A stretch of 64,000 nt of DNA from Sipunculus nudus (taxonomy: Eukaryota; Annelida; Sipuncula; Golfingiida; Sipunculidae): positions 54,569,676 through 54,633,675 of the forward strand of contig CM049316.1 in assembly GCA_026874595.1 (NCBI GenBank), given 5' to 3'. Position 1 is the stretch's first letter; each line of letters begins with the position of its first letter. Shown in pieces: positions 37-60,100 of the stretch. Both the position numbers and the translations under genes were made by a program. Below the pieces are notes generated by a model that saw only the letters and a program-made list of their open reading frames with translations, made no database searches and was not told the origin of the DNA.

Positions 37-37
37 A

Positions 38-1282
38 TCCCCAGACAAACCCGGGATACTATGGTTTCATGATGGTCCCGCCGCCGCTGCCGCCGCCGCA
101 GAAAAACCTTGTGAGCAGGATAACTCAAAAAATATTTCACTGATCTTTTTCAAACTTTACATTTGTATAGATATAGGTAAGGGGACGAAGCCTATTTAAA
201 ATGGGGTCATAACCTATGCTAGGAGAGTGACCTTGACCTTGAATAGGTTCATTTTTGCTGAAAATAACACAAATTCTTTAATATCTTAAGTAAGCTTGCA
301 TGGACTGGTCCAAAAATCAAGGTGACTGAAGATCTTGGATAGCCTTGTGATATACCGGAAACTAGTGGCGCCACCTATTATCCTTTACTTGTTTTTACGC
401 CTTTTAATACCCCCATAATTGCCACTTGACAGTACTGTAAGCATTATAAGTCAAAAACTGACGGACAGAATTCTTTCATATTATGCACATGTAGAGAGAT
501 GGGTTATGGGATGAGGTCTATTTACATTTGGGTCATGACCTTTACCATGAGAGTGGCCTTGACCTTTAATGTGTCCATATTTGGTGAAAATCACACACCT
601 CTTATGATATCTCCAGTGTTGATAGCCATATGGATTTCAAACGTGACTTATGTATTGCCCACCACTAAAGTAAGAACCCTATAGGTTCTAGGGTCATGAG
701 GTCAAAGGTCAAGGTCACTCGACTCTCATCTTAAAAGATACTGTGGATGCATTTTAAGCCAAACTTTCATCCCAGGTCTTCCACCTCGAATATATAGCTC
801 ACTTGCCAATAGTGGATGATCCATATCAATTTTGGGGTCACAAGGTCAAAGGTCAAGGCCACAGGAGCTATCTGTCAAAAAATTAGTTTCTGGATGATAA
901 TTCCTGCTTTAATTGATGTATTAATTTCAAACGTGACTTATATATGTCCCATTGAAAAAGCAAGACTCCAATTAATTTTGGGGTCATGGGGTCAAAGGTC
1001 AAGGTCACAGGACACATCTTTAAAAAGATTGTGGATGCATTTTCAGCCAAACATTTCATCTCAGATCTTTCATCTTGCACATATAATTCACCTACCAAGA
1101 GAGGAAGAACCCTATCAATTTTGAGGTCACAAGGTCAAATTGTGGATTGATAGATGGAAGAAACAATAATTGCTTGCCAAGTGTCAGGATATGCTGCTAA
1201 AAATGGGGGCCTATTCTTAAAGGGGGAGGGCTGTACTATGTCTGGGGATACTCTGGCACCTGCGGTGCCAAGATATGTCTAG
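38..1282 (+). mobile_element. Helitron/Helentron-like element, family C, copy 1
   Basis: The copy begins A|TCCCCAGACA and ends CTAG|T, the host A...T context and TC...CTRR ends known for Helitrons. Near the 3' end an inverted copy of the start (TGTCTGGGGATA, about 1240-1251) is followed by a perfect hairpin, GGCACC-TGC-GGTGCC (1255-1269), nine bases before CTAG. The interior contains a GGTGGCGCCACC-like palindrome (about 365) and several AGGTCAAAGGTCA motifs (about 702, 842, 990). Other copies lie at 48662 and 54783. No coding capacity is visible, so it is non-autonomous. The ends are seen directly; the class is inferred. Confidence 0.7.
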
Positions 1283-1379
1283 TTTTTTTTTGTTTTTTTT
1301 TTGGGGGGGGGGGGGGATATCTAAAGCTTAGCAAACAAAATCTTGGATTCACTTGGAATGATCAGTGCATCTGTTTCAG

Positions 1380-1773: not shown

Positions 1774-4700
1774 GTACGTTACTGTTAAACCATCATGAAA
1801 CACTGGAAAAAATCATGTTCATTATAAGATGTTTTGACATACCATTAATTGTACATTAATCCAAAATAAAAACCCCATGGTGTGAGCCTGGTCTATTGGT
1901 AACTTCATGAATTGCAACACTGGTACAATAATTTTTTTTAAAATTTTATTTGATGTACATCATTTAAAGGCTAAATGTATGTTTTATTAGTATATTTTGA
2001 TGTGTTGCCGTACATATGAATCAGGTAGTCAGTCACCTACATGATTTTTAAATTATGCCTGTTGTGCTAATATTCCATCCATCATTTAAACCATTAGGTT
2101 TTTCATTTTGTTGGATAGATAATATAAAGTATATAGGACTCTGGACCCAGACCCATTGCCCCTGAGCTAAAGGTCTGTACCATTTCCAGGCCTCACACAG
2201 TTTGTTGAAGAGTTATAAGTGCATAAATATTGACATAATATATCTAGCTTTTTAATACTCTGTGCAATTTGTGGATAAACTTATAAGTTATATATTTCCA
2301 TAGCTGTTTTTTAATTTGTAATACTGTTTTCTCTGTTTATTTTATAATGCTGTATCTGCAAATATTATATCCATTAAATTACCATATTTCCATGTACCTT
2401 TGATTATGATTCCATCAGTAATTACATTGCCATATTAACTTTAGAGTAGGCAGTATTTGAATTTTCAGGAGTTGGTATAAATACTGTGTACTTTTCAGTG
2501 AAAGAAGTGACCATCAGACCCACCATAAGGATGAGGAGATTTTATCACCCGGTCACCCAAACATGGAGTCTCCACTGCCTACCTCAGAGAAAGACCTATC
2601 AACAGATCTATCAGATAAAGACTTATCAGTTGATAAGGACCTGGTACCTGCTACCTCTGAGGAGGACCTGTTACTACAGTCTCCTCTAAAAGTCATCCAA
2701 ACAAGAACACCAAAGAAGGATGTGTCACACGCTGTCTCATACAAAGATCTGTCAACTGATATGTCAGTCAAGGAACCATTTCCAAAATCTTCTGATAAGA
2801 ACTTGCCTCAGAGTAATTGTTATCAAGATTCATCAGTACATTTCAAGGATAGTATATCACATTCACACATGTCAGATCAAGTCCTATTACCAAACAAATC
2901 GGAAAAACCCTATCACTCAGATAAGGATTTGTCACCTCATCACTCTGATAAAGATGTGTCATCCTATCACTTAGATAAGGGTTTATCACCTTATCACTCA
3001 GATAAGGATTTGTCCCCTTATCACTCTGATAGGGATTTATCGCCAGTTCTTGCCAGACAGGATTTACCTTCTGATGCTGCAAACAAGGATTTAATTGTAG
3101 CTTCCTCAAAAGACTCACCAATAGATCAAGTAAATAAGAATCTGGCAAATGTGTCTTTGGATAAGAATCTGGCAAATGTGTCCTCAGATAAGGATCTGTC
3201 AAATGTGTCCTCAGATAAGAATCTGCTAAATGTGTCCTCAGATAAGAATCTGCTAAATGTGTCCTCCGATAAGAATCTGCCAATTGTGTCCTCTGATAAG
3301 AATCTGCCAAATGTGTCCTTGGATGAGAATCTAGCAAATGTGTCCTCGGATGCAGATTTGTCACCACATCCAGCAAGTAGAAACTTGTCACATGTTTTCT
3401 TGGGGACAGGACTGTCACAAGTTTGTACTGATAAGGATCCATTACATAATTCTTCAGATAAAGAAATATCACCAGATCCTGTAGATAAGGGCCTCGGTCC
3501 TAGAGATAAGGACTTAACAGCAGGTCCTGGTGAGAAGGATCATCAAACAGATTCCTCATATGAAGAGCTCCTACCAGATCCTACAGATGATGAACTTGAA
3601 CATGAAAAGTACAGTCTACTGGACCAAGGAGCTACAGATCTTGATCAGTCCTACAGGGTCATTGAGTACAGTAGTGATTCTACAAACACAGAACATGGGG
3701 ACTTGGCTGAGGAGAATATGAGTGTTACACAGGTAGTTATCCTTAGCAAGAGCCCAAGAATCAAATCACATAAACACAAAAAGATTATGGAATGTGGTGA
3801 CACTGCTACTTTGAGAGGTAGTCCTGATGGTGCTGTTAGTTTACACACACAGGAGATTGATAGGCCGGACTCTCCAGTGATATCACAAGGGTTTCAGCCC
3901 ACATGGAAGTCTCTGAACTGTATGTTAAACTCTTGTACTGACTGCAGGCTTCAGGTCAGGGAAGAAATGCACAGCACCCCCAGGGGGGCGGATATCCCAG
4001 TCACTGTAGTGAGCTTCAATAAAAGTTCAGAGGGGGAGAGCTCTGGTAAAGAATCATTGTCCTGTTTACCCCTTGATATAAGTAGTCCATATTACAAGCC
4101 TAACAGTTCTGCTTCAGATATTTTTATAAACTCTGATGATGAGAAAATTGCTGAAAATCAGAAAGAGCCGACATCATTTACCAAGATAAAATATCATAGA
4201 AACAGCACCCATAGGCTTGGTAGTAATGAGGACTACATTACTACCATTTTTAGTCGTAGGGATGCTGCTTGTGATTTCCATGGTAATAGTTGCCATGGAG
4301 ATAATGATCATGGCACTGATATTTGGAAACAAAAATCAGAACTACGAAATACTGGAAAGCAACCTGAGGCCATGGTGAACCCAGTATACAACCAAAACAT
4401 GACCAGTGTTTTGACTGAGAGTGCCTCAGGAAACAGCAGTTCGTGCAGTGCTGGCTTACTTGCTCCTGTCATTTGGATCTCCAGTGACTCCTCTCAGGGC
4501 AGCAGGCAGAACAGTCAGCAGCTGTCACAGCAGTGCAGTCCGGTATATTCCTTATATGTTAAATGAATATTACCTGTACCCCTTTCACAAATGGTTTTAA
4601 AATGTTTAGCTCAAAGTGGATTGGTCATATAGGTTTCAAACCATGCTCAACATTAAAACAGGCATCTGGCACCAATGCATGAGGTAAACATATCACATGT

Positions 4701-7700
4701 AGATCAATGTGATAACATGTTGACACAAGCATTCAGATCTGTACTGTGATTCAGCTTGCTGCTTCTAAACTTGTCACATTAGCGGAGCAGGTCATTTGAA
4801 TCGTCTTTGAAACGGTTTGAAACCACCTCCTGAGCTGGATTCAAACTGTTTTAGCCAAATCAGTTAGTAAACGCTTTGGACGGAAGTGTGAATGTTCAAT
4901 TCGCACTAAAACTGTTGAAACTATTTTGCATATGCCTTGTGAAAGGGGTTTTAATGTACTGTATTTACCTTGTTGTAACTTGTAACTTAAACTAATATGA
5001 GAAATAATCCTCAGATAAGCCTCAACAAAATTAATTATATTTTCCTTGTAAAATAACTGTTTCGTTTGTTGTGGATTTAATGGGGAAAGCTTATTAAGGA
5101 ACATTTTGAATCTATTCCAACTCAGAACCAAACAAATACATTTAACAAGATAGCTGTAATAACTGTTCTTTGGACCAAGTACTGAATATGAAGGATGTCT
5201 GACTCAGTTTACATATCTTAATACTATCAGCGAATAATATTGGTATGAACAGCTAAAGTTGAGTTTATGAATAAGAAATTAAAATTAATGATCAAATATC
5301 ATCCAGTTTCACTGTATACAGTACAGGGAGACTGAAATGAGTTAGCTTTGAGTAAGACAGTTAAATATAATCACACTGTACCTGTCATTTCAAAGAAAAA
5401 TAAAATTTTAATGTTTAGGCAAAAAAAAGGTATGGTTTTCAGGCACCGCCCACGTCAGTTTTAATCCCCTGCATCAAAAATTTTTATTTTCAATGGAAGC
5501 ATACCAATTTAGAGCTCCAGCTGGACATTTCTTTCAAGAAGATATAATAATTTAATTTTGATCAAATATCCTTTGTTATGTAGTGCTTTTACCTGTTTAG
5601 CAAAAAAAATTCTGTTATTACCATGCTTTTCCCTGATTATATGACTTTTTTTATCCAAACACAGAAAAGGGTAAAGAAAAAAATTGCCTGCCCACATTGA
5701 TTTCTGAAAAGTGCCTGAGAACCAAACCTAATTTTTTTGGCCTTACTCAAGATAACATATAGCCCTCGACAAAATTTATATTTTCTCCATTTCCTTATTA
5801 TCTTTTTAGATTTTGTCTACAGAAGAATTTCCTAAGACTTCATGTAGTGTTTGTACAGACAGACAGACAGACCAGATCATCTCATTAGGCTTAAGGACTG
5901 GTAAGAATAATCAAACTTGCTTATTGTTTCATTTTGTGGTGTAAATTTATTTTTTGGAAAGGAAAATTTTGTTGAATGCTTAGTTTCTTACTTCTCGTGA
6001 TATGTGTGTCTTATTGACTTTATATAACTTTTGTACTGGGTTCTTAATGAAGTTAATATTGAACTTGTGAATCATGACTGTAAGAATGATGTGGTAAAAA
6101 AAAACTTCAGACTGCTCTCTGCTCATCAATACTGCTGTCCTTGGACCTTTTGTCTTCAGTGATGATACAGTTCCCTAAGTTAACAGTGGCGTCAAAATCT
6201 TCAAGGGGGGGGGGGGGGGGGGGGGAACAAGTTAAAAACAAGTATAAGGTTTAAAGGATAAGGTATTATTTTTCCAGTATAGGTTAATTCTAAACCAGGT
6301 TTAAATATATAATTTTTCATAGAAAACTCAGAGGTGGAACCAAAGTCTATATTTCTAATTACTATTATAGGTATTTTATTTCCAGTTTATTAATATTATC
6401 TGAATAGCAGGGGAATGATTACATTGACCATCCCATCCCCCCCCCCCCCTCCCACCTGGCTAAAAAGTTGGAGGGGGGATATATACCCCTCCCCCTATAT
6501 TGAAGCCCCTTTAAATTACGCAACCCTATGATATAGTTTTCCATTCATAATGCACTAATTAATAGAAACTCAAACAAAAATGTGGCTTTTATAAGTATAA
6601 TCATATGTGTTTATTTATTATGAAGGTAATGGAAAGTATTTCTTGTTTAATGATTAACAGTATATCAGTACTTTTTTAAATTTTTAGGTGAAGATTATTC
6701 CATTGTAAAGTCAGGGTATTTCTCCCAGCTAAACAGCTATGTGACACAGGAAAAGTATATATGTAGGCCAGTTCTGCTCCTATAAATTGAATTATGACAC
6801 ATTATGACTGGGCTACAAGGTAAAAAAGCAATCATTTTAATCATTCTAAACACCTGCAATCCATCACAGCTACTATTTCAATACCGGTATTACACTAGAC
6901 AATGAAGCTCCTATATGAACTGCTTCAACACAGCTGTTCATAATTTAAATGGTGATTTAACAGCTACAGTTTAAATGCAAACATCTGAATACTTATTGGC
7001 TACTCCTTCCATAATATTACCATTATCATATTAGACATCAGAACACTAGAAGTTTGGCTCTTCAAGTCTTGGAGTGAAAACTGTGTGACATGTAGTCCGG
7101 CAAATCCTGTGAACCAAGGGACTACACCATTGATCATCCAAAAGCTTTTGCTTGCCTCTGCAAGATTTATTCAAGATTATATTCTTAATTTTTAACTGGT
7201 ACTTGTATTTATTTATCAGCAGATGAACCAGGACTGAATGTTGAAGTTGATATAATTGAAAGTTCCTGGTCTGAGGGCTCACAGGACTACACCATACCTA
7301 GCTCCAACACTGAGGAACAGGTAATTACCTTTGCACTAGCATTTTACCCATTCTTTATTTGGAGTTTTATTTCAAATACAGTACACAGCATTATAAAGTC
7401 GATGGCTGGATTTATTGTCATAGTTTTTGATAGATGGTGCTGTGACAGCCCTGTCTTGAAATAATTCTCAGGATTTATAGAAAAGTATGGATGATGGCTG
7501 CCCTAAGATAGAATTCCTGACACTCTAAGACAAAAAACAGGCATTTTTAGCTCAGCTGACTATAAGTCATCTGAGCTATAGTCGTGGTCCATTTCCCCCG
7601 TCCGTCTGTCCGTCCGTCCGTCCTTCACGTTTTAAAACCGTAAGACCTAGGAATCCAAAATTCAGCATAGTGTTAGATGTCCCCAAGATCTCCTACCAAG

Positions 7701-10700
7701 CCGAAAACTAGGTCATTGTGACTTCGTTCCTTTGAGAAATTAAGGAAAAACCTCAATTTTTAGCGAACCTGTGAGCTTATGCGATGGCGCAGCGTCGGCC
7801 GTCCGTCGTCAGCCGTCCGCCGTCCAGGGCTGGCTTTCCGCCGTCCATGGCTGTAAGTCAGAAACTGTCGGAGCTAGCAGCTCCAAATTACATGTAAGAA
7901 TTCCTCACACGTGAAACTTGGTGCCCTGGAGCTTATTATTGGGTATCTGCATTAATTTAGATTTTATACAGAAAAAGCTTAAAAACCTTTAAAAATCTTC
8001 TTCTCTGAAATTGTCCAGCCAAATTGTCCAATATTTCACAGAAATGATCTCTGGAACAAACTCTTTCAAGTTTGTTTGAATGGTTCCAGTTCGGAGAGTT
8101 TTGGCCGAGTTACAGGAGGTTGAACTTAGTCATCTGTCCAAAAAAGCACACTAAAATAAAAATCTCAGAAACGGCTAGAGCTATAATGACCAAATTTTAA
8201 ACCAATGTTTGTCACATATGTCATATCTGATTTTGAGGTATTGGTGGCGCCACCTACATTGATGTGTTTTTTACAAGCGAAAATGTAATTTTAAACTCTT
8301 CTAGCTTATACACTGATTTATGATGAAACTGTTCAGCTGATTGGTTTAAACTTTACAAGAATTATTCTATGGTAGGGTTCTGCCAGTTTTATAAGAATAG
8401 ATTGGGTAAATACAGTTTTAAAAAAGCATTGTAGCCAATTGAAAAAGGCTTTCTGTATTTGAAAACAGATTTGACTTCATGCAGCCAAGTCAAGAGGTAA
8501 CTCAGTACAAACAGGTGGGGTCCAGACATCACCATGGTAACTGACCTGGCTGGGGGGGGGGGGTGTCTAGACAATGTGTCTAGACGTCTAGACACAGCGT
8601 CTAGACGTCTGGATATAATGTTTAGATGCAGAATTCCCAGATAATTGGAACTATATCTTTCAACTGTTTGAAAAAACTTGGTTTGCATTTTAAGCAAATT
8701 GGGTTTATCATCAGGTCACATGTGAACTGCTGCACCTTCATTTTTGGTTGACCGCTGACCTTTCCTTGCTGCCCAGTGTCCATTTGTGCGTCTGTTTCCA
8801 CACACAAATCCACATATCTTGGGAACCGTTTGACCGATCAGGCTAAAACTTTTGCACAAATGTAGCCCTTTGATAGCTTTATAACATACACTAAAAATGG
8901 TGGTGCCACCTGCAACCATTTTTGCACAGCGTCCATCTGTTCATCTGCCTTGGGATAATATTACTTATATCTCAGCAGTGGTTTGACTTATCCACCTGAA
9001 ATTTTGCAGGTTTATACATCCTGGACAGCTTTCTCGATTTTATGACAGGTGGCGCCACCTACATTCACATTTACTCTGCAGACATCCAAGCTCGTATCTC
9101 GGGAACCGTTTGACCGATTGGGCCAAAATTTTGCATGTGTATAGATCTTACATAGCTCTTCATCATAGGCAAAACTGGTGGTGCCACCTGCAACCATTTA
9201 TGCACAGCGTCCATCTGTTCATCTGCCTTAGGTTAAAATCACTCATATCTCAGCAGTGGTTTGACTTTTCCACTTGAAATTTTGCAGGTATTTTACATCC
9301 TGGACAGCTTTCTCGATTTTATGATAGGTGGCGCCACCTACATTCACATTTACACTGCAGACATCCAAGCTCATATCTCTGGAACCGTTTGACTGATTGG
9401 GCAAAAATTTTGCTTGTGTATAGATCTCACATAGCTCTTCATCATAGGCAAAACTGGTGGCGCCATCTGCAACCACTTATGCACAGCGTCCATCTGTTCA
9501 TCTGCTTTGGGATAAAATCACTCATATCTCAGTAGTGGTTTGACTTATCCACCTGAAATTTTGCAGGTTTATACATCATGGACAGGTTTCTCGATTTCAT
9601 GTCAGGTGGCGCCACCTACATTCACATTTACTCTGCAGACATCCAAGCTCATATCTTGGGAACCGTTTGACCGATTAGGCCAAAATTTTGCATGTGTATA
9701 GATATCACATAGCTCTTCATCATAGGCAAAACTGGTGGTGCCACCTGCAAGCATTTATGCACAGCATCCATCTGTTCATCTGCCTTAGGTTAAATCACTC
9801 ATATCTCAGCAGTGGTTTGACTTATCCACCTGAAATTTTGCAGGTATTTTACATCCTTGACAGCTTTCTCGATTTTATGACAGGTGTCGCCACCTACATT
9901 CACATTTACTCTGCAGATATCCAAGCTCATATCTCATGAACCGTTTGACTGATTAGGCTAAAATTTTGCATGTGTATAGATCTCACATAGCTCTTGGTGC
10001 CACCTGCAACCACTTATGCACAGCATCCATCTGTTGATCTGCCATGGGATAAAATCACTCATATCTCAGCAGTGGTTTGACTTATCCACCTGAAATTTTG
10101 CAGGTTTATACATCCGATTTTATGACAGGTGGCACCACCTACATTCACGTTTAAGCTGCAGACATCCATGCTAATATGCAACACACCACGCTCTATTCCC
10201 CTTGCCACTTAATCCATGCCTCACTTCACCCGTCCCACTCTGATTTCTGCGGATACACATAGTGGCTTGTCGACTACCCATAGTTTGGTTTTAAAATGTC
10301 CTAGTCCGAAACTTGCAGGTCAGAAACATCCATTTTGCAGAAATCATAATGACTAAGGTAGATATGCAGGACTTAGGAGGATCAATATTAAATTTTAACA
10401 AGTGACCCATAGGTCATGACACTCAGCTGCCAAGCATGACCTGCGACATCATGGGCTGAGATTCACAACTTCCAGTTAAATTTTGAAGACCCAAATTGTC
10501 AATATGTTGAAATTTTCTACGACAACAGAAATATATATCACCTATGTCTGGTTAAAACACAGTGAATTTATGGTCAGAGGAAAAATATTGATTGTAAACC
10601 TATCAGCAACTATTCCCAGAGCTTGCTTGATACCTGTCAGGCTCAAAAGGAACACCACAAAGGGCAAATATAAGATCAACATATATAGCAAAAATCAAGG

Positions 10701-13700
10701 AAACCCATGCAAGAATTATTGAGAAATGGGTGCTTCTGTTTAAATTTTATTTAATACAAGCCAACTGTACTGCACCTGTATAAATGATGGTAATATTTAT
10801 TAAGAAATATTTGACCCAATCCTTTGCAAGATAAGATTAATACCGTATTTATTCTAATTTGGCGACCACTTAAAAATAATTAATTTTCTCAGAGGTCGAG
10901 ATAATGGAGGATATTTGAAAATTATCTTCATGCAGAATTTGCGGTAGTCGAGATATTAGAAGCATGCGGTTTGATAACCTTCCGTAGAGACGCAGAGCCG
11001 CTCTGACACTCGAGCGGTCATATGAATTGAGTGATAATTTGGTTGTATATAAGTTTGTTTTGTTAGCTTAACAGTATTATCTACAAACGGGCTTCCAACC
11101 GTCACATGAATTATACGCAGTCCTCAAATGATTAATCAAACTGAGCTCAATCACTTTACAAAATGATCACTACTTCGCGTATAGGTACGATCACTTGAGA
11201 TAGACGGTAACTCATGTAACCACCAGTTGTTTCAAGTTAACCCGCCAGGCGGCGATATCGGCGGGCCGAAAAGGGACAAGCAGCTGCATCAAGTTGGAAG
11301 AAGACTTTATAAAAAATAACTGCCTATTATCAGATAACTTTTATTTGCATAATACGTAATAAATATAGGAAAGTAAAGGCGCGTTAAAATATACACGACT
11401 GGAAATGGTCCTAGCTCGCGTGCCCTCAATCGGGCCCCGTTTGGTACGTGCGGTCTCCCATCCAAAAACTAACCGGGGTCATTTAAACTTAACTAAGATG
11501 ACGGTTCCACCTGTATCACAGTTGTTCCACCACGTGTGCTTTGCAGTATTTTGTAAATATTATTGCTGAAGATGCCACGTGAATTGCACATGAGGCACGT
11601 GCGTACCAGGAATGGTACACGAGTTTGCTTCGTCAAGGACACCCATTTGGTTCATGAACGCTTTATCATGTTTATATATTATGAAAAACGCATCTTTGTA
11701 TCTTCATAAATTTTATTGGAAGCAAGTTTGATGTGGATGCCCAGTGTTATAAGAATCTAGTCAGATACAAACTGCGGTGCCCGTGAGAGACGGAGGCATT
11801 TCACCTTAACATCGTCAACAGAAAACATCGTCGACAGTCGAGAAATTAGAGTCTTTTTAGAAATTATGCTTTCAAAATATTTTTTGGGGTCGAGAAATAA
11901 GAGGGATCGCCAAACTAGAATAAATACGGTATACTTCTTACTGCATTCACTTTAACAGTTCTTGAGATAATATGATCAAAAGGAATATGGTTGCCTGGTG
12001 GCCATATTCAACTTCTGACAGGTCTGAAATCAGACAACAAACGTTCTCTAAATTGGATCAAACATTGAAGAAAAATCACTGAAACTGAAACTGATTTCTA
12101 AGGTGGCTAACTGGCAGACATAATGGATTTCTGACAAGTCAGACATTTGATATCACACATCCTCCAATAAGAGACCAAACTTGGGGCAAATTCTCAAAAG
12201 GATGGTACAGTAATGAATGTCCAAAACAAATCAAGGGCATGTTAAGGCCCTCATATCAGATTTATAGATATGCAAATGTAAAAAGTGTAAGTCTGATTTT
12301 TTTTATTATAACTCTGCTTTTCAATGGGGTCAGCAGGGTAGGTAAACTGCAAAACCTGAAAGAAAGGAAATGCAGAAAGCATGACAAGAGTCTTGTAATG
12401 AAAAAAAGCCATCCTTAATCCAGGTACATATCCACATATTATGAGAACAAACACTTGCTTTTATATGTGGTGATTTATATATAAATATTCTGATATCTAG
12501 GAAACTAAGTTTATTGCTATGATTCCACAAAATAAACTGCAAAATGTTCCCATCATCTTATAAATCAGTAGCTAAACCTTAATACTATACTCTCATAGTC
12601 TTAATGCCTGGCTTAAGCATTCCGAAAACTGTGTTTTTGTTACGCAGTAACGAGGTACTTATCACTCAGCCTTATCATTTTAATAGGCTGATACAAAAGG
12701 GAGTCATATGTCACCAGTGTCACTCACAATTACAGCAACACAGTGAGATGTACCAGCTGGATTGCAATGGTTATATATATAAAAGAAAAATAGAGATGGT
12801 CTACAAAATAAGCAGGGTTCGTACGCACCTTGAAAACCTTGAGAAGTGCTTGAATTTGGTCATTTCAATTTCAATGGCTTGAAAAGTGCTTAAAAAGAGA
12901 GAGTGGTTTGGAAAAGTGCTTGAAAAATAAAATTTTGTGAAAGAGTTTGGTGTATGTTGTGTGTATGCATACCTGGTATTTTAATATCGCTTTTCGGGCA
13001 TCTCTACGTCAATCAAATGTATGAAATAGAATTAACCCAATCGTGGATGAATGAGACGATGTAACAAGTTAACATACGAGGGTAATAACCATGTTTATTA
13101 TCAAATAGTAAGTGAGCTGCTTTACTGGAAAGATCGTGGAGATTTCCCTCGAGGTACGTATAAAAAGCTCTTTAATTGAAAACTCAATCCACGCTAGGCG
13201 AGTTCACGTAAGTATTTTCGCAAGATTTATAATTTAAATTTTAAAGTAATACTACAGAGATTATTAATATGGCTATTGAGAAGATCTGTCCAAAGGAAAT
13301 AATTATCTGGGAACAAACCAGGGGAATAAAATGTGTGAAAAATACATGATGGGAACAATTCGAATCTGAGGGATAATAATAATATAAAACTAATTTGCTC
13401 AGTAGAATATGTCGTTTAAATCAAGTTAACTTTACGTTTTACATTGGTAACTCGGCGATAATTATTATATCAGAGTGGTCATATTTCCCCAACGAACCCA
13501 ATCCGACTTTGTTTTGGTTAAAGGTTTTTCAGTTTAGGCCCTATCCAAGGGTTGCGTGTTTTTTTGTTGTTGTTTTTTTTTATCTTTGTACCTGCGCATT
13601 TCACGTGTACGCGCTGTGTTCGTCATTTGTTAGCTCCATAAGACCACTGATCAGCGAAATACAGTTTACACGCGGGGTCAATCCAATTAAGGATAAATAC

Positions 13701-16700
13701 TGTTTGTCCGAAATAGGTTAAGGTGTTGGGCAGGTACTGATGTATATTCACATACTCTGGCGTCAGTTTGTAAAAGGCTGGGATCCATGGGGGGAAATCA
13801 CATTTTTGTTGCGATGTGATAGCCGTTTGTAAGCGAAGTACGCTGGCAGTTTAAAGAGTGATCAGCGACATATACAACTTCCAGCATCGGCCCCCTCCCT
13901 GCCCTGCATAAACGATTGCATAAAGGTCGCCAACAAGAGGTTTTTTAAAATAAGATTTCACATTTTTAGTTTTAATCAAATGTTGGACATGTTTGAATAG
14001 GAAATCTGGCTGCGTCTATGATCGTTAGATAACGACCTTCACAGGTGTTGCCCGGCCATTTGTTGGCACGTGCGGCCAGTGACTTGGCGGTAAACGGCAG
14101 AAACCTCGTGCACGACAAGGTCGTCATATCAAACGTGCTGATACGAAGTTTGACTAGTATTGTTTTGAATAATTTGATAATACTATGCCAAAATATCGTA
14201 TAAGGGTAACATATTACAGGCTTTTAATTTTTTTTGCTGTTGAAAACATGAATGAATATCCCCCACGATCGCCGAACTGTCAGAGTTTTTCGGCACCCTT
14301 TCTGCCGGAGCATATTATTTGCTAAAGTTTGAGCTAGTCGGCAAATCAGAGATCCCTATTCAAGATATTATAGGTTTTAGTCCCTCGTTATCAGATTAGT
14401 TAAATCTGTCAAGGTCATGCCAAAGATGAGTGATCATTTTGAATGTAAAGTTAAAACAATGGGCCGCTGTGTATTAAACCGCGACTGGCTATACCGAAGG
14501 GTATTTCACAAGCGCTTCAATTGCTGTTAGTGTAGATTTCGGCTAAATTTGTTATTTTCTGAGTCATTTCCTTATAACTATTACTTATTTTTACATTTCC
14601 TAGCCTTTTTTATCGCACTATATGGTCCATCTCATTATAAATATTATTTTGCATTTTGTGTTACAAGCCTTTCAATGTCGGCAACATGCATGGGTGAAGG
14701 TGCACTGACCGTCCATAAATTTTGATGTCCTTGAAAATACTTTTCAGGTCCTTGAAAAGTGCTTGAAATTTTTCTCATGATAAGTGTACGAACCCTGATA
14801 AGTTATTGCGAACATCCCTGACCAATGACCTTGGCCTTTTGCCCACATATCAACTGGATTCTTTCTAAATGATGGGTAACTACTAACTACTTAAATCTGG
14901 TGTAATTACTTGGCAACCCATGAGTGAATAACTTTGACCTGCAACCTTTAACCTCCTGACCAGCTGACCCCAAAATCAATCAGTTATTTCTTCAAGCAAA
15001 AAGACCCATAAATATGAAGTTTGGATCAAATTGAGTGATACATAGATGTGGCATATGTGAAAGACTGAAGGTTTGGGTTGAACAGTTTCACCAGAAATAT
15101 GTTCACAAGCATTTAGAACAATTAAGTATTGTGGCCTTGACCTTTGACCTTTTGAACTCGACATCAATAGGCTTCTTCCCCTATTGGTAGGTAAGCCATA
15201 TATGTCAGATGGAAGGTATAGATTGAAATGTTTAACTGAAAATGTCTCCACATTAGAGGAGGGTGCGGTGAACTTGACCTTTGACCTCAAAATCAACAGG
15301 TCTTTTCCCCTGTTGGCAGAGAATCAATATCAGTGCTGGAAGGTTTGGAATAAAAAGTCTAGCTTGAAATGTGTCCACAACCTTTTAAAAAAATATGTTC
15401 ACAAGCATTTAGAACAATATTGTGAACTTGACCTTTGACCTTTTGAACTCAGCATCAATAGGCTTCTTCCCCTATTGGTAGGTAAGCCATATATGACAGA
15501 TGGAAAGTATAGATTGAAAAGTTTGCCTGAAAATGACTCCACGCAAGAAGAGGGTGCTGTGAACTTGACCTTTGACCTCAAAATCAACAGGTCTTTTCCC
15601 CTGTTGGCAGAGAAGCGATATCAGTGCTGAAAGGTTTGGAATGAAAGGTCTAGCTTGAAATGTGTCCACAACCTTTTCAAATAAGTGGATCCTGTGACCC
15701 TGACCTTTGACCTTGTGACCTCAACATCTATAGGATTCCTCTCCCACTTAGTAGGTGAGCTATATGTGAAAGATCAAAGAATTGGGATGAAAGGTTTGGC
15801 CTAAAATGCATCCACAGGCTTTTCAAAGAAGTTGGTTCTATGACCTTGACCTTTGACCTTGTGACCTCAAAATAATTATGGTTCTTCCCCTGTTGGTAGG
15901 TGAGCTGTATGTGAAAGATGGAAGGTTTGGGATGAAAATTTTGGCTAAAAGAATTATTTCTGGGGGATGCAAACACACCCCATAACTTCGAGAATATAGG
16001 TCGCAATGACCTAATTTCAGGTTTGCAAGGAGATTTTTTTAGAACCTCTAAGACTGCATAGGGTTCATGGCCCTAGCCCCTACGGTTACGATTTGTGCCC
16101 TGCTAACGGACGGCCGGCCGGCCGGATGGACAGACGGAAGGACGACGGACAAAGACCCATCGCTATAGCCCAGCATGACTGAAAGTCAGCTGAGCTAAAA
16201 ATAAACCTCCATTCATACTCCTAAGCTTTGCACAGGTTCGCATTAGGCCTGTAGGCCTTGTTTTATTAAAAACCTATTTTTACACTTCAGGACTGCCTAA
16301 TATCAAAACCAATCATCTGTTTTTCCTCATATTTACCATAAATATTCCTCTATATAGTTCCTATGTACATGCTCAGAAATTATGTCTGTATTATATAATT
16401 TAAAAAAGTTATGGGCCCAAACATAATGCATTTTGTAAAAAATCAGGAAAGATATTTGATTACTTAACACAAAACATGTTAAAGCTATGGACTTTTTTTC
16501 CAGTAATATAACTTTACTTAATCAAAATTAAATTGTATACCCAAAATTAGATCAAAATCTTATAATTTTTTTTAAATGTTAACAAAAATAAAAATTGGTA
16601 CCTTAAATTTTGCCCAACCTTGACCGTGGCACTTTTTTTCCTGTAAGTACTGTGGATTTAATTTTCACAGTATGTTTTTGTTAGCATTTTGTCTGTTAAC

Positions 16701-45258: not shown

Positions 45259-47897
45259 AGCTCAGCTGACTATAAGTCATCTGAGCTACAGTCGTGGTCC
45301 ATTGTCCGTCGTCCGTCTGTCTGTCTGTCCGTCCATCCGTCCGTCCGTCCGTAGATGTGGCACGTTTTGAAACCACAAGACCTAGGAATCCAAAAATCAG
45401 CATAAAGTTAGATGTCCCCAAGATCTCCTACCAAGCCGAAAACTGGGTCTTTGCGACTACGTTCCTTTGAGAAATTAAGGAAAAACCTCAATTTTTTATT
45501 AAAAACCTATTTTAACACTTCAAAAGTGCCTAATATCAAAACCACTGATCTGTTTTTCCTCATATTTACCATAAATATTGCTCTATATAGTTCCTATGTA
45601 CATGCCAGAAATTATGTCTGTATTATATAATTTAAAAAAGTTATGGGCCCAAACATAATGCATTCTGTAAAAAATCAGGACAGATATTTAATCACTTAAC
45701 ACAAAACATGTTAAAGCTATGGACTTTTTTTTCCAGTAATATAACTTAAATTAATTAAAATTAAATTGTATACCCAAAATTAGATCAAAATCTTTTAAAT
45801 TTTTTAAAATATTAACAAAAATAAAAAATTGGTACCTTAAATTTTGCCCAACTTTGACCATGGCACGTTTTTTTCCTGTAAGTACTGTGGATTTAATTTT
45901 CACAGCATGTTTATGTAAGCATTTTGTCTAATAACACCAAAAATTTGAAACTAGTTGATCAAAAACTGTAGATTTTATTCAAGTTTTCAAGCACCATGTA
46001 ACATATTGTTTACATTAAGCTAGTGTTATGCAGTTTGCAAGAGCTCAGTTCCCCAGCTTCAGCTCTCAGTTCCTAAAATTTGGCATACAATTAGATGTCT
46101 CCAAAATCCCCTACCATGCCAAGAATTTGGTCACTAGAACTTAATACCTTCGAGATATTAATGAAAAACTTCATTTTTCCATTAAAAACCCATTGTTACA
46201 CTTCAAGACTGCCTAATATCAAAACCACTGGTCTGACTTTAATCATATATAATATATATATTTTTCTATACTTTCTCTATGCACATGTCAGAAATGATGT
46301 CAGTATTGTGTAATTGTTTTAAGTTATGGGCCCAAACATAATGCACTTTGTAAAAAATCAAGAAATATATTTACTCCCTTAACAAGGGGATTGCTAAGCT
46401 AGAGATTTTTTGTCAGGGATGTAACATTATTTAATCAAGATTCAGTTGAATACCCAAAATTAGTTCTGAATTTTTCAAATTTTATAAGTTATTAGTATAA
46501 ATATAAAATTAGTACCTTAAATTTTGCCCAACTTTGACCATGGCTCGTTTGTTTCCTGTGAACACTGTTGATATAATTTTCATATCATGCACACATAAGG
46601 ATTTCAGCTTTTTAGTTTAGAAAGCTGAAAGAAATTGGCCAAAAATTGTAGCTTTTATTAATGTTTTTATGAGACCATGTCAGACCTTGGCTCTCTCAAG
46701 CGCCTCCTGAGTCACCTGTATGTTGACCTTGTTGAACTTTCAGCAAATTATGCATGCTTGAGGCGAGGCATTCACTGGGGCAGCCAGGCAGCTTATGGCC
46801 AGCCACAGTTGATCCAAGTGTCCAACCCAACTCATCTAGTAGTTTTATCCAACAACATAACAATAAACAATAAATTAATAAATTTTTATTGGATTTTAAT
46901 AACAAATTAAAGAAAAATAGAAAAGGAATTTGTTAGTTTATAATAACAGGAAATTAACTTGCAGTTACTGTTAATATAAGAATCTTGTATCGATGGATAG
47001 AATGTCACATATTCCAAATAACACCATGCAGTATTTTTCAGTCCAGTTTTAATGATAAAAAAGTAAATCATTTTATTCATTACTACCGGTAATCATTAGG
47101 GATCATATGAAGGAAGTTAATGATCAACAAAGATTCAGTTGATAATATTAATCTAGATTCTTACTGTGTCTAGTGTGTACACTGATGTGAAATTAGTCCA
47201 AAATGAATATATAACATTTATTTTTTTTTAATATAAACAAAAGCCATAAAACCAGGCACTTAAAATCATTATTTAAATGTGTGAATTTTGTATATTCTGG
47301 ATTCTCAACATCATTGTTTGATGAAAACTATATAAATACCAGACATGGTGTGAATACTTTGCAATTGTATTTAAATACGAATATGAATATGTACTCCATT
47401 ATAAAATTTCTTGCATAAAGAATGGTAATTCAGGTAAAAATGAAAGTATATGAATACCAGTGCAAATACTTTCAAAATGTATTCATGAATGCATTCATGA
47501 ATATATTCTTTAATATTATTTTAATAATCTTTTCAGTTATATTTCATTTTAAAAAATCATACGATTCTCTTATTATTTTTAATAAAAATTATATTTGGGA
47601 CATTATTTGTAATTTTTTTTTAATAAATAGTTATACTCATATTATATGTTCTGCTTATAAGTTATATGGCCAAGTCAAAATCTGTTTAACAGTAGTACTC
47701 CATTTGTTAATAAAATAAATGAAATCAATCTTCTTCCCCGTCTCCAAAGGTACTATCAAAATCATACATAAGCTAAACAACAACAACTCATAATACAGCT
47801 TATATTTATTACTACACAAAACCAGCATGTGCCTCATTTCTAAATCATATTTTTTATCATACATAACAGCTGAGCGCCGTGACCCATAGGTCCCTTG
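45259..47897 (+). mobile_element. Family A element, copy 4 (uninterrupted reference copy)
   Basis: T run, AGCTCAGCTGACT/AGTCATCTGAGCT hairpin, CCGTCC repeats, a 2.3 kb interior, CAGCTGAGCGCCGTGACCC, ATAGGTCCCTTG, TTT. The interior follows copy 1 (16261-18663) block for block. It ends 86 bp before the putative GALNS 5' exon boundary. Confidence 0.8.
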
Positions 47898-47983
47898 TTT
47901 ATATCATACAGTGTTGTGTTTGATTAAGTTTTCTTGTGTTTATGTAATGCTACATTTGCTGAGTATAAGGATATGTTTTTCAG

Positions 47984-48145: not shown

Positions 48146-51100
48146 GTGAGTAACTCACTGTTTTATTTATTTGTAATTGTATGTCAGGAAATCCTCCAGA
48201 GGTTCATGATAAAACTAGTCGTTTTTTAAAGGATAGGTCTATGGCCTGTTTGTGGCACTGTCTTTTTAATTAGGATGAAGTAATCCATGTGATAAGAATG
48301 ATATGATATTATTATTAAGCCATCTGGCCCTGGATTTCCAGGTTTAAAATGCATAGGGTTACAAATAATCAAGAAGTCATATTCCTGTTGTTAAGACAGA
48401 GGTAATCTCTGAGGTTCTATAATGAGATTTCACCATTATGCCATCAAGGCATTGGCATGGTTCAAACCGAGGACTTTCAGCTCCGAAGTCCAATGCCTGA
48501 ACCACTAGGCTATGTCCTACCCCTTAAAAAATAGAAGTTTTATGCCTTACACTAACAGTGACTCATATCAAATAGTTACTTTACCTGGATCACTAAAAAT
48601 TAAGCTTGTTGACATGAACCCTGTTACATGATTTGTTTCAGAAAACTTTCATTTAATTGTATCGCCAGACAGTCTGGAGATACTATGGTTTAGGCACGGT
48701 CGAGCCGCCGCCGCCGCCGCCGCCGCCGTGCAGCCGCCGCAGAGATTTCTTTTGGACACAATAACTCAAAAAATATTTCACGGATCTATACCAAACTTGG
48801 TATATGTATAGATATGGGTGAGAGGACGACGCCTATTTAAAATGAGGTCATGACCTCAACTAGGAGAGTGACCTTGACCTTGAATAGGTTCAATTTTGGG
48901 GAAAATCACACAAATTCTTAAATATCTCAAGAAAACTTGCATGGATTGATCCCAAAATCAAGTTGATCGAAGATCGTGGATAGGGTTGTCATGTTCCAGA
49001 AACTGGTGGCGCCACCTATTATTCTTTACTTGTTTTCATGCCATTTAATATCCCCAAAATTGCCACTTGACAGTACTGTGAGCATTATAAGTCAAAAATT
49101 AATGGACAGATTTCTTTCATATTATGCAAATATATAGATATGGGTTATGGGATGATGTTTATTTAAATTGGGGTCATGACCTTTCCTATGAGAGTGGCCT
49201 TGACCTTGAATTTTGCCATATATGGTGAAAATCACACAAAATCATTAATTTCTCAATAAGGGATGCATGCATTGGTCCAAAAATCAACTTGACCGAAGAT
49301 CTTGGATAGTGATGTCATGTACCGGAAACAGGTGGCGCCACCTGTTGTTCTTTTACTTGTTTTTGTGCCGTTTAATACCCCATCATTGCCACTTAACAGT
49401 ACATTTATAACCTGTGAGCATTATAAGTCAAAAACTAATGGACAGATTTCTTTCATATTATGCATATACATAGACATGGGTTATGGGATGATGTATATAT
49501 AAATTGGGGTCATGACCTTTCCTATTAGAGTGGCCTTGACCTTGAATATTGCCATATATGGTGAAAATTACACAAAATCATTAATATCTCAATAAGGGAT
49601 GCATGCATTGGTCCAAAAATCAACATGTTCGAAGATCTTGGAAAGTATTGTCATGTACCGGAAACAGGTGGCACCACCTGTTATTCTTTTACTTGCCACT
49701 TAACAGTATTGTGAGCATTATAAGTCAAAAACTAATGGACAGATTTCTTGCATATACATAGACATGGGTTAGGGGATGATGTATATTGAAATTTGGATCA
49801 TGACCTTTTCTATGAGAATGACCTTTTCTATGAGTGTGGTCTGATATTAATTGTTGCTGAAGATGGGGGGCCTATTCTTAAAGGGGGGGGGGGGATTAAT
49901 TGTCTGGGGATACTATGGCACAAAGAAATATCTAGTTTTTTTATGTACAATTAAAATGTATTACAATGTATTAATGAAAAAATAAGTTACTTACATGATT
50001 AATTAAAATATGGAACTTTTTCATTACCTTCCCAAGTACTCTGTTAGATGATATTAGGAGAATATCAAGAGATTATACATTTGAACTGCTTTATTTAAGA
50101 TTCTATATGATGTCAACTCTCGGGATAAAATTATTAGGTGTTTGGTACTGGTACTAGGTGTATACTACAAAATGTTAATCTTTAGGTGGGACTTAAATAA
50201 TATATTTAGAATTATCTACAGTATTTCAGGTAAGGCAATTCTTACAAAGAGAAATTGGACTTTTTTTCTGCAAAACCAATATTTAAAATTAGAGCAAATA
50301 TCAAAGGTAGACATTTTCAACTGTTGTGTTGTGCAACTGTTGTAAATGTCTTCACTTGAAAGTATATTCTGAATCTGCTATGTGTATATTTAATCACTTA
50401 TTTTTGAATGCCAGGTAATATAGGACTCAATACAGAACTGGAGAAAATTAGATGCAGATGGTGTTTAAATTTGATATATTCCATACTGATTAAATACAGT
50501 GAACTCCCGCATGACGACCACCCCCTTAACATGACCATTCCGCTAACACGACCACTTTTCTTGGTCCCAGAATTGTCTAATATAAATTATCATATAAGAA
50601 ACTTTGGTAACAGGACCACCCCGCTATCACGACCAACAACCACCTTTTTTGGTCCCGACCTTCAGATGAGCCCCCGTATTACGACCACCGGCCCGTGGCG
50701 ATAGCGGCCCGTAGAGCAGATGAAACGCTCATCGCCGAGCTTGGACTTAATAGCCCGTGATTAGTTAGCCGTACACCTGGGAAAGTTCACTTTCATCTGC
50801 CCAGCAATAGTTAGACTTGTTTATAATGCCGCCCAACCTGTTAGCCAAACTATACACATCAATAGATACTGGACTCCATGGTCCGTTACATTGTTTTGTT
50901 GAGTGCGGCTGTTAGATAAGCATAAATTTAACATATTGATCAAAAAGGAGTTTGGCAAACATAACTGACACCACACGCATACAATCAATAATGTAAAACT
51001 GTTTCAACTCACATTTTAATGATCAATCACGAACCATATAAATAACACTTAGAATTTGATATGTTCATTCTGTTCTCACCGCGTGTTCGACATCAGACCA

Positions 51101-54100: not shown

Positions 54101-57100
54101 TGTCAATTTTTTTTATTGAAGTTTTCACCATTTAAAAAGTAAAAACACTTAAAAAGCCTGTGTTAAAGTGTTTTTCATTTTGAAAAATCCCGAAATATTA
54201 GTGTGTATGTATGTAGTCTCCAGACAGATGATCCATGATGAAAATGTGTGTATCAGGATATTCTTTTTTTTCTAAAAGAATTTCATTTTGTCTTTCGTTT
54301 TGTCAAAGTGGTCAGATTGATATTTATATTAAACTTTTGAATTCTGACATTATTGACCAACAATTTTAATGAAATAACATTAATGCTCTTTTTTTGGACA
54401 AAGCAAAGAGTTTACGTCAGGTGATTACTATATACCAGTGCCTTTAGTATTGAATATTTTATGTATAAACCAACTCATGTGATAAGTTGTATTTTTTTCC
54501 TTTAAGTATGATGGAGCTTCTAAGACTGAAGTTCTAATATGTACAATCTTGAGTGATAAGTTGTATTTATTTTCTTACAGGTATTATGAAGATTTTAAGA
54601 TAGACCTAGACACAGGCTTGTCTAATCTTACTCAGGTTTACATTCAGGTGAGTTGGGTCAAGGGATAGAAAACTAGTTGTAAAGAGATGGGCTGCATTCA
54701 CAGGGTACTTGTGGTCATTTAAGCAATACTAATTAATCAATTATCAGGATTTGTTTTGTTCTTTATGGTTGATTTCATTTTATCCCCAGACAAAGTCGGG
54801 AGATACTATGTTATCATGACGGTCCGGCAGCCGCCGCCACCGCTGCCGCATATAAATCTTGTTGGCACGATTACTCAAAAAATATTTTACGGATCTTTAC
54901 CAAACTCGGTATATGTATAGATATGGGTGAGAGGACAAAGCCTATTAAAAATGTGGTCATGCCCTTTACTAGGAGAGTGTCCTTGACCTTGAATAGGTCC
55001 AATTTTGGGGAAAATCACACAAATTCTTAAATATCTCAAGAAATCTTGCATGGATTGATCCCAAAATCAAGTTGACCAAATTAGACCATGGATAGGGTTG
55101 TCATGTTCCAGAAACTGGTGGTGCGACCTATTATTCTTTACTTGTTTTCGTGCCTTTTTAATACCCCCAAAATTGCCACTTGACAGTACTGTGAGCATTA
55201 TAAGTAAAAAACTAATGGACAGATTTCTTTTATATTATGCATATACATAGATATGGGTTATGGGATGATGTCTATTTAAATTGCCATGGGTTCATGACCT
55301 TTCCTATACGGGTGGCCTTGACCTTGAATATTCACAAATTTTCTGAAATTCACACAAAATCTGAGATATCTCAGTAAGGGATACATGGAATTATCCAAAA
55401 ATCAAATTGACCGAAGATCTTGGATAGCTTTGTCTTTTGCAGGAGACAGGTGGTGCCACCTTGTGTCATTATCTTGTTAAAATGATGTTTAAGCAATAAC
55501 TTTGTAAGAATTTGAGGTACAGTCACCAAACCACAGGTTTGATGCATCTTATCAACAGCTAGGTCAAGTTCGAACATGGATGACCTTGATGCATTTTTCA
55601 AGGTCACAGCAGCGATTTTGCTAAAATAATATTAGGGCAATAACTCAAAAAGAATTTGTGGTACAGTCACCAAACATACAGTTTAGATGCATCTTATCAA
55701 GGGCTAGGTCAAGTCCGAATATGGATGACCTTGATGCATTTATCAAAGTCACAGAGGCGATAACGCTGAAATGATGTTAACTTTTATATCTCACTGAGGG
55801 ATGCATGGATTGGTCCAAAAATCAAATTGACATAAGATCTTTGATAGCATTGTTTTCTGTTTGTAAGGTGGCACCACCTTATGTTGTTTTCTTGCTAAAA
55901 TGATGTTTAAACGGAATAACTTTGTAAGAATTTGAGGCACAGTCACCAAACCACAAGTATGATGCATCTTTGTCAACGGCTAGGTCAAATTTGAACATGG
56001 ATGACCTTGATACATTTTTAGCTCAGCTGACTATAAGTCATCTGAGCTATAGTCATGGTCCATTGTCCGTCGTCCGCCCGTCCGTCCGTCCGTCTGGATG
56101 TCCGTCCATAAGACTGGCACGTTTCGACACCGTTGGACCTACGAATCTGAATTTCGGCATACAGTTAGATGTCCCCATAATCTCCTACCATGCCAAAAAT
56201 TGGGTCAATAGGACTTCGTTCCCCTGAGATATTAAGGAAAAACCTCAATTTTTTATTAAAAATCTATTTTCACACTTCAGGACTGCCTAAAATCAAAACC
56301 ACTCATCTGGTTATCTTCATATTTACCATAAATATTCCTCTATATAGTTCCTATGTACATGCCAGATATTAAGTCAGTATTATATAATTTAAAAAAGTTA
56401 TGGGCCCAAACATAATGGACTTTGTAAAAAAATCAGGAAGATATTTGGTCACTTAAGACCAAAAGTGTTAAAGGTAGGGACTTTTTTCCAGTAATACAAC
56501 TTATATCAATCAAAATTTAATTGTATACCAAAAATTAGATCAAAATTTGTTAAATTTTTTTAAATATTGGCAAAAATATAAAATTGGTACCTTAAATTTT
56601 GCCGAACTTTGGCCATGGCACGTTTTTTTCCTGTAAGTACTGTGGATTTAATTTTCACACCATGTATACATAAGGATTTAATCTGTTAAAATCTGAAATT
56701 TGAAAATAAAAGCAGCAAAATTAGGCTAGTTATTGAATTTTTTTTGGAGGCTCTTGTTGTATTCCCTTACATTGTCAAGCAGTCCACTTTGATGACTGTA
56801 GGTCATTCAGTGCACATCTCTATGCTCCCCAGGCTGTTGACATAATTTTAGAAGTCCCCAAAATCTCCTACCATACCGAAAATTGGGTCATTAGGACTTT
56901 GTTCAGGACTTCAAGATATTAAGGAAAAAAAACTCTGTTTTCCATAAAAAAAGCCATTGTTACACTTCAGGGCTGCCTAATATCAAAACCACTGATCTGT
57001 TTTTGATCATATTTAGGATTCACATTCTTTTATACATTTTCTATGAACATACCAAAAATTAGGTTAGTATTGGGTATTATTTTGAAGTTATGGGCCAAAA

Positions 57101-60100
57101 CATAATGCAATTTGTTAAAAAATCAGGAAATATATATACTCACATGAGAATTGCTGAACCTAGAGACTTTTTTTCAGGAATATAACTTTATTTAATCAAG
57201 ATTCAATTGTTTACCCAAAATTAGATCTGAATTTTGCAAATTTTTCAAGTTATTAGCATAAATAAAAAATCAATACCTTAAATTTTGTCCAACTTTGGCA
57301 CTGTTGATTTAATTTTCACAGCATATATACATAAGGATTTAATCTTTTAATATCTGAAATTTCAAAGAAACTGATTGGAAAGAATAGCTTTTATTCATGT
57401 TTTCATACACCATGTCAAGTGTTGTTTACATCTAGCCCACCTAGTAGTACAGCCTTCACTTGCATTATGTAACCCACCCCAGGCAGCTTGCCTTGGGTCA
57501 GCTTGGCCACTACCAGCAGGCTTCCCCTCTGCTCTGCACTCCCTCCCCCCCCCCCCCCCCCCAGATGGTGCATAAACTAGATGAATGTTATTATTTTCTG
57601 TATGTGATTCATTCTTATTCTAGGCTATGCTACATTTTAGACTTTGTATTGTACCACCAGGGTTACAATGATTAAAGTGTACATTTAATTGTGTCCACAA
57701 AGTGGTGTATTGCTATGAAAGTGTGGATGTTCATGAGATAAGTAATTCCTTACTTCAGAGGAGTAAAAACTTCACCAGGTGTGAAATTGACTATTAATTT
57801 CAGTAATTAATTAAAACTTGGATAGTAATTAGCACAATGATATTGTTTGCTTCTCATTCAACCAACAGTGTGTATACTTTATTTGAAAAGATGTTTTATT
57901 TTATCAAATTTACTGAATCTTTTATTTTATTTTGGTGAATAAAATTAAGCAGGTACTGAAAACTCCAATGTGCAAAACTTTTTAAAAGTGATTCAAGGAA
58001 TATTCTTGTAGATGCCATGTTGTGGCATTATTTTCTTTTAAATTCAGTTTAAACATTTATGATTCAAAAATAATAAAATATATGTGTATGCATAATATGA
58101 CCCAATATGAGCTACACTCTGGATATATGATGATTGCAACATTTGCAACAATTCTAATATTTTAACTTATAGTTTCAGTTTTTTACTCTGTATATATAAT
58201 GATTGCAACTTTTGCAACAATTCTAATATTTTAACTTATATTTTCAGGTTTTTTCATTTGAAATTTATAAAACCTGTAAAAAAAATGATTCAGATAAAAG
58301 CTTCTTAATGGAAAAAGTGGATATGCTTAAAAAAATAGGCTTATATATAAACTTAAATGCATTATTCCCTTGAAAGTGAAATGAAGGTATTAGTCCATTC
58401 TGTCCACTTGCCTGTCCATCTGTAAATTTTCCATCTGTAAATTTTCATACATTACAGTATCTCAAAACTTTTACTGTTTTTCTTCATGACAGTCTTGTCA
58501 GAGTATTAGTTTGCAATCATATATTTAGAACTTTACTATAACCAATTAGGAGGGCCCCTTTCCTCTTAGCTTTTCATATTCTTATATAAATGAAAAACAT
58601 TACAATAGAATATTTCTACATCCACCTTCGTGCTGCCCTCACTTTTACCTTCTCCGAACCCCATCCCAAAGTCAGCCTCAGTAAGCAAGAACAAGATGAA
58701 TCAGATATATTCATACTTTAATATTTTATATAACTATTCGTCCATAGGTACCTAATTACATGCCAGAAATTATGTCAAAATTGTGTAATATGTAGACATA
58801 GTGGGCATCACAATAATGTACCTTGTCAAGACTAAAGAGATATTGTGTCATACAGTCACAAATTCATAAATCACTTCATCAGCATAGTTAATCATAACAT
58901 CATATCTGTCAAATTAAAAGCTTGCAGACTACCATACACTTTAGATCCTTCAACAAATAGCCTTATCATCATTCTACTACTGCTTATTACTGCTGTCATT
59001 GCATTCATATTTGCTCAAATATATCACAATTTTCTACACCTCTTCAATAAATAAAAAATAAACCACTATATATGACTCTATTAATCAATCAGTCAGGTTA
59101 TTTCATTTATCATTTACTCACATATTACATTACATTCCTTTATAATAGCCCAACATGTCCATGATATTCATAAGCTTTATCGACTCGATATAGTATCACA
59201 GTGGAGAAACATTTATGGTCCAATCACGATCAGCTGAGCGCCGTGACCCATGGGTCCCTTGTTTCAAGGTCACAGCAGCAATAATGTTATTACGGCAATA
59301 ACTCAAAAAAAATTGTTGGTACAGTCTCCAAACTTACAGGTTAGATGCATCTTATCAAGGGCTGGAGGGAGGGGGGTTAATTGTCTGGGGACGTTATGGC
59401 ACCGCAGGTGCCAAGAAATATATAGTTTAATCATAAAATAGAAGACCTATAAATTGAACACCAAAGAGCTCCCCATGTGGTGTGTTTTAAATTTTACTAT
59501 GATCAATTCAAAACAATGCATAAAAGTAGTTATTTATTACTTACCATGGATATGCACTGCCTCCTGGTGCTATATAAACAATAACAATACAGGGAGCTAA
59601 TTCATGATGTATTTAAGTTGTGTTGTTCTGTACAGAAACAAGATGGGCACTTGAACCCTTTATTGAAACACCAGAGGAAACCATGATACTTTAGATGCAC
59701 TTATTAAATTTATCATATTTTTAACTCTTACTGTATCGATTTCCAGGAAGCCTTGGACTTCCTCCAGCAGCAGGCCGGTTCCGCTGAGCCGTTCATGATG
59801 TACTGGGCACCAGATGCTACACACACCCCAGTGTATGCATCAGAAAAGTTCAGGGGAAAGAGTCGCAGAGGACTGTGAGTTGTCCTGTTAATTCAGACTG
59901 GTAGTTACTGGTTCTTCTGTTACCAGTACATAAAAAAAAAACAAGCCATACCCAGCCATTCAACTGTTGGTTTGAACAGTTTCAATTAGCCTGTCTCTAT
60001 GGTGTGAAAAATCACTAAATTCATGAGTAGCTACTAAAATACATGTTAATATATCTGCCAGACCTTTATGTAGCTGATCTCTTTTCTGCAGTTTCAGGAG

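Follow-up and report, generated by a model that had tools for sequence, protein, structure and literature searches.

The window analysed here is a 64,000-nucleotide stretch of the Sipunculus nudus genome (C11:54,569,676-54,633,675; names such as C11 denote contigs), and the genome examined with it comprises 1.43 Gb in 153 contigs. When 5' and 3' ends are paired, the window holds 11 copies of four repeat families, five of family A, two of B, three of C and one of D (Table 1), at the locations given by an earlier sequence-only reading of this DNA. The central proposal of that reading, that the four families follow one end plan, is borne out by these copies, which have in common a T-rich 5' border, a 5' inverted repeat with its partner set back from the 3' tip, a hairpin between this partner and the tip, and a CTWG tip followed by T. 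Several are nested, with A around B around A at 7549-18663 and C around A at 54781-59425. Seven of the ten end patterns scanned in the window have a shuffle expectation of 0.0, and the other three, all short patterns for the C 3' end, lack specificity when taken alone (shuffle expectations of 5.2, 0.4 and 64.8).

Table 1. Repeat copies and other features of the window (window positions), and coding elements elsewhere in the genome that carry both A ends or both D ends (contig positions)
Feature	Location	Strand	Size	Remarks
A copy 1	7549-18663	+		B 7762-16260 inside; flanks TTTTT / TTT
A copy 2	10399-16196	-		nested in B copy 1; 291-bp tandem repeat 15095-15681
A copy 3	33469-34823	-		3' tip CCTAG; 282-bp tandem repeat 33704-34372
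A copy 4	45259-47897	+		repeated units of ~680 bp
A copy 5	56020-59261	+		nested in C copy 3; empty-site rows with three fewer T, 2/2
B copy 1	7762-16260	+		in A copy 1; 278-bp array 8813-10115; empty-site rows with three fewer T, 4/5
B copy 2	21082-23484	+		127-bp array 23055-23321
C copy 1	36-1282	+		inverted repeat TATCCCCAGACA; hairpin 1255-1269; tip CTAG
C copy 2	48660-49935	+		degraded hairpin; 336-bp array 48807-49695
C copy 3	54781-59425	+		A copy 5 inside; tip ATAG
D copy	26773-28124	-		5' tip, CCGTCATT-type microsatellite, 180-bp array, 3' hairpin, CTAG
Tandem array	30108-32366			6.7 units x 338 bp, GGTGGCGCCACC core; bounded by no A-D end of the window
Open frame	2461-4563		701 codons	two stretches of 27-bp (9-residue) repeats; no Pfam match
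A partner, E3	C17:35,625,479-35,640,366		~14.9 kb	5' end 4/35 mismatches, 3' end 4/31
A partner, L018 element	C1:71,789,254-71,805,193		~15.9 kb	5' end 2/35 mismatches, 3' end 5/31
D partner	C3:41,766,495-41,778,502		~12.0 kb	5' and 3' ends 0 mismatches
D partner	C5:20,300,939-20,313,327		~12.4 kb	5' and 3' ends 0 mismatches

As had been described, the inverted repeat is subterminal; in all 11 copies its arms match exactly over 7-12 nt and the 3' arm stops 19-34 nt short of the tip. In the D copy it is the inner 5' arm that gives the longest match. Other details of the plan held in part. The palindrome near the 3' tip, said to be present in all families, can be recognised by eye in A, B and D and in the first and third C copies; in C copy 2 it is degraded. 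A CTTG or CTAG tip followed by T is found in 10 copies (CTAG in A copy 3), the exception being C copy 3, which ends in ATAG although T still follows. The CCGTCC-type microsatellite expected after the 5' end of A, B and D is, by eye, clear in A and D and irregular in B copy 2. The palindrome of A had been given a CATA loop, but GACCCATGGGTC is commoner than the CATA form among the genome matches listed. The conserved 5' tip of C lies further out than had been thought, with GTATCCCC directly following TT. No match to RepHel (Rep-helicase-endonuclease) proteins was obtained with the window by tblastn, the Helitron_like_N profile has no match inside it, and transposase is absent from the Pfam matches of nine window frames.

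End patterns are named below by family and side (A5 and A3 for family A, and so on), except those of family C, which are written out. Genome-wide counts took in A5, A3, B3, D5, D3 and both C ends, with B5 left out, and gave 33,353 matches for A5, 29,666 for A3, 11,407 for B3, 1,919 and 8,640 for the C 5' and 3' ends, and 4,346 and 4,645 for D5 and D3. Reversed-pattern controls gave 0 matches, except for one with the C 3' pattern.

Junctions were tallied over 100 matches listed per end pattern; as these were all exact, on contig C1 (for the C 5' end also C2), the tallies describe the best-kept copies. Among the matches listed the T-run before the tip is exactly five long in 65/100 for A and 59/100 for D, and position -6 is an A in 53/100 and 57/100 respectively, so that the T-run is not arbitrary host sequence. 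The most variable position within the run is -3 (T 85 and A 13 for family A, T 90 and A 7 for family D, among 100 matches listed for each), and TT follows A3 in 91 of the 100 listed. Empty sites were sought for the 11 window constructs, seven of which gave no row and two only short chance rows. For B inserted in A, four of five spanning rows have exactly three T fewer, and for A inserted in C the same is true of both rows. Where C is inserted in locus L024 all six paralogues are 2 nt shorter, the difference being TT in five of them and one T plus one A in the most diverged, L027. A D insertion inside a B copy has the same number of T as an 81%-identical paralogue, and the composition of D junctions agrees with that of A. 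Insertion of A, B and C is therefore at TT, with T strings at the ends and no longer target duplication. Helentrons are described as carrying a T string of varying number at their ends (PMC4067079), which the empty-site differences of 2-3 T fit.

The Helitron_like_N profile matches at least 143 places in the genome (150 of 195 candidates scored). The RepHel loci sampled consist of six Helitron_like_N loci, the stretches after selected helicase-endonuclease matches and some upstream stretches. In both E1 and E4 Pfam identifies Helitron_like_N, PIF1 and a C-terminal Exo_endo_phos; E1 additionally has OTU, and the N-terminus of E4 has Herpes_teg_N. In E5 it identifies Rep (Helitron_like_N) with PIF1. 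RGSPHxH is seen in E1, E3, E4, E5, E6 and the D element on contig C3. The combination of Rep, PIF1 and C-terminal Exo_endo_phos is the Helentron gene plan, published as a Rep/helicase with a fused endonuclease (PMC4067079).

The first 1,500 nt after RepHel matches were collected as 38 stretches, including five from E1, E3, E4, E5 and E6. These start at differing points, since helicase/endonuclease matches end at different residues and L058 follows a Rep match only, and they are relatives partly picked for diversity, neither an independent nor a random sample; L067 and L068, neither of which has any A-D end, are outside the count. Allowing up to eight mismatches of 31, A3 is present in sense in 17 of the 38 and in antisense in one, and allowing up to three it is present in 12 and none respectively, where 0.59 would be expected from genome density. 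D3 is found in two stretches in sense and none in antisense (0.09 expected), each time without a mismatch and at offset 340; B3 is present in one stretch, and the C 3' end in none within these 1,500 nt. Beyond this distance L024 has A3 at 2,707, behind the nested C, and L026 has B3 at 1,771. Two candidates were rejected. The E1 lineage has the most open frames of the RepHel genes, but E1, like E4, has no A-D end within reach; its gene is followed by a 1.85-kb array with a 319-bp period, and its copies are still ~82% alike where the 4.15-kb stretch ends. E2, with the top Helitron_like_N score, offers only an A3-like stretch with nine mismatches, which lies 5' of the Rep match.

Stronger evidence than the counts of A3 and D3 comes from the points at which related copies part. 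The search proposed in the sequence-only reading, for an autonomous-type Rep-helicase element with the same ends, yielded two coding elements for A and two for D (Table 1). The two A partners are 15-16 kb long, and the agreement between them begins at their A5. After the gene, E3, L016, L017 and L018 are 98-99% alike and part no more than 4 nt from the A3 tip, and in other pairs the agreement ends at the tip (L021/L022), 1 nt past it (L023/L028) or 5 nt past it (L025/L029); some of the last agreeing letters past A3 and D3 tips are the T that follows the tip. The E3 protein is 89.5% identical over 2,013 residues to that of E4, which has Rep, PIF1 and Exo_endo_phos, and the domains of E3 are assigned by this identity. 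Close to where the endonuclease ends, its frame departs from that of E4, and L018 has a stop within the endonuclease stretch matched. The coding partners found for A and D carry mostly interrupted frames, and a complete intact partner is not among them.

Window copies of A resemble the A partners only across the first ~80-250 bp. The A3 end is common to genes whose identity to E4, measured in one stretch of 330 residues, is 45-90%, so that the ends do not track the proteins tightly, and sharing of machinery within the A group is likely, judging from these sequences. In the E5/L023 lineage the 3' end is A-type, and the 5' end lies beyond the sequence examined. E5 (L075+L014+L009) and L023 (L076+L047+L039) agree at 97-98% over ~14.7 kb in two blocks, nearly all of it upstream of the open frame of the A-type RepHel gene, and this agreement could mean either that the Helentron here is very large or that the segment has been duplicated. 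A second A5-like copy is found further into both A partners, at ~0.7 kb in E3 and ~1.1 kb in the C1 element (L070/L046 and L071/L045). The RepHel genes of E3 (L005/L006) and E4 (L007/L008) are 93% identical over 6 kb and their 3' noncoding sequences largely unrelated; an A-type end lies within reach in E3 but not in E4.

The D partners have D5 with five T upstream of the gene and D3 downstream. Agreement between the two copies starts 2 nt outside the D5 T-run. At the other end (L033/L040) they are 98.9% alike until 3 nt beyond the D3 tip, where they diverge. Helitron_like_N and PIF1 are identified in both and Exo_endo_phos in the C5 copy; the last 228 residues of the C3 copy share 97.8% identity with the C5 stretch containing Exo_endo_phos. 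The frames of both are interrupted. Over its first 1,235-1,309 bp, microsatellite and 180-bp array included, the window D copy shares ~82% identity with the 5' part of the partners, and its last 50-55 bp are 85-86% identical to their 3' ends. As TRF identifies arrays of 180 and 181 bp in the D partners, the array was already present in the parent, and the window D copy is an internal-deletion derivative of such a partner, that is the parent minus its gene, which has kept the microsatellite and the array; this applies to D only. The C3 partner (L033/L049) itself apparently lies inside a family B element, as its joined flanks match window positions 21144-21334.

Among the loci sampled no RepHel carries both B ends, and none carries C ends. 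In L026 and L027 the gene is followed by a B-type array and B3, but the best B5 match has 11/26 mismatches and lies after the gene, with none upstream at the limits used. The nearest outer tip upstream in L026 is A-like, and both genes are relatives of A-type lineages. As B5 is lacking and the genes are A-related, a 5'-truncated B insertion is as likely as a B partner, and both loci are doubtful candidates only. Arrays in the 5' part of the A partner on C1 show ~69-71% identity to the B array. At C1:63715319-63744642 (L074) four C 5' ends lie 9.76 kb apart. We rejected the idea of a head-to-tail coding Helentron there, since the one unit examined holds a 1.4-kb C element and also B ends, which points to tandem duplication of a segment.

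The ends, their copy number and nesting, the T-rich insertion of A, B and C and the coding elements with both ends of A and of D are direct observations. Because RepHel elements bear both A ends and both D ends, the Helentron/HINE class put forward in the sequence-only reading stands, and we consider it very probable that A-D are non-autonomous Helentrons (HINEs), gene-less rolling-circle transposons which have retained the ends that a Rep-helicase-endonuclease recognises. The families could instead be MITE-like elements of a cut-and-paste DDE transposase that makes a short T duplication, and the extra 2-3 T at filled sites would fit such a duplication equally well. However, the same ends bound RepHel elements, which strongly disfavours this reading, no transposase appears among the Pfam matches of the nine window frames, and at the 3' end the inverted repeat stops 19-34 nt short of the tip; true terminal inverted repeats, one of the outcomes named beforehand as contradicting the Helentron class, were not seen. 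We therefore reject this reading, to which we attach hardly any probability. For family C alone, a canonical Helitron (TC...CTAG, inserted between A and T) is suggested by an A before TCCCC in 94/100 and a T after CTAG in 96/100 of the matches listed, and insertion of this kind had been proposed beside insertion in T runs. Conservation of the 5' border nevertheless extends outside TC to the longer TTGTA (84/100 of the matches listed), TT follows CTAG in 92/100 (three of the eight CTAG matches listed without TT resemble the palindrome read on the opposite strand) and empty sites are 2 nt shorter. Because of this conservation C is not an inserter between A and T, so that only the T-rich part of the proposal, for A, B and C, was upheld; the TC tip does not lie between A and T, and a canonical Helitron, rejected here, is very unlikely.

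With the families read as HINEs, the remaining question is how many enzymes serve them. The sequence-only reading had suggested one shared machinery acting in trans, and a single RepHel lineage moving all four families would account for the common layout and for the border preference that A and D have in common (A at -6, five T). The A-type 3' end on genes down to 45% identical to E4 in one stretch also speaks for it, since an end can evidently outlast much protein change. Against this, A-lineage and D-lineage RepHel proteins are only ~31-36% identical and each has its own pair of ends, so we take them as separate, related machineries and find the shared machinery unsupported and a single lineage improbable. 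The physical linkage of ends and genes suggests rather that the enzymes serving the families are related but distinct, and each family is probably served by its own group of RepHel lineages. We also considered that Helentron genes and ends might be exchangeable modules, with HINE families arising or changing partner by end swapping. This is suggested by the near-identical RepHel genes of E3 and E4 (93%) with different terminal regions, by lineages with otherwise unrelated 3' sequence having in common the final 35-40 bp of one A-type end, and by two A-related genes followed by a B-type tail; it is a tentative idea that is more likely wrong than right.

From what is known of Helentrons, movement of a HINE of this kind would begin with a nick by Rep at the 5' end of the element, after which the helicase would peel off one strand. 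The 3' hairpin and the set-back inverted repeat may serve as the stop for copying, and the copied strand would then be joined into a T-rich site.

In the pearl or CvA elements of oysters the core tandem array adjoins a tetranucleotide microsatellite, and by this description they are similar to A-D. The name CvA is used for oysters in a paper that puts Helitron-type elements at ~9-13% of oyster genomes, with satellite-like arrays (PMC11136912). A closer likeness is given by the published description of Cg_HINE from Crassostrea gigas (PMC7492417), which has a subTIR with an adjacent inverted repeat, a GTCC/GTCY-type microsatellite after the 5' end, a central tandem array, a 3' subTIR with a palindrome, and TT insertion for which no target duplication was found. 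As this layout is in print for oyster, A-D belong to a kind already known. According to the same description no Cg_HINE could be linked to any of the 10 autonomous elements, leaving open which elements move HINEs (PMC7492417), whereas here families A and D each have coding elements that bear both of their ends. The DINE-1/HINE elements and Helentrons of Drosophila, mite and Culex, as described, are also alike in having a Rep/helicase-endonuclease, subTIRs, a 3' palindrome and variable T strings, and there as here HINEs are deletion derivatives of their partners; they differ by description in their end sequences, and the partners found here have mostly interrupted frames (PMC4067079). In the open-licence literature searched on Helentrons in bivalves and molluscs and on HINEs, no title or opening of an abstract announces a link between a HINE and its parent. 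The D parent, with the same microsatellite and 180-bp array as the window copy, shows that a HINE can receive such an array from its parent, and the A and D coding elements give pairs of ends and proteins that are usable in a transposition assay.
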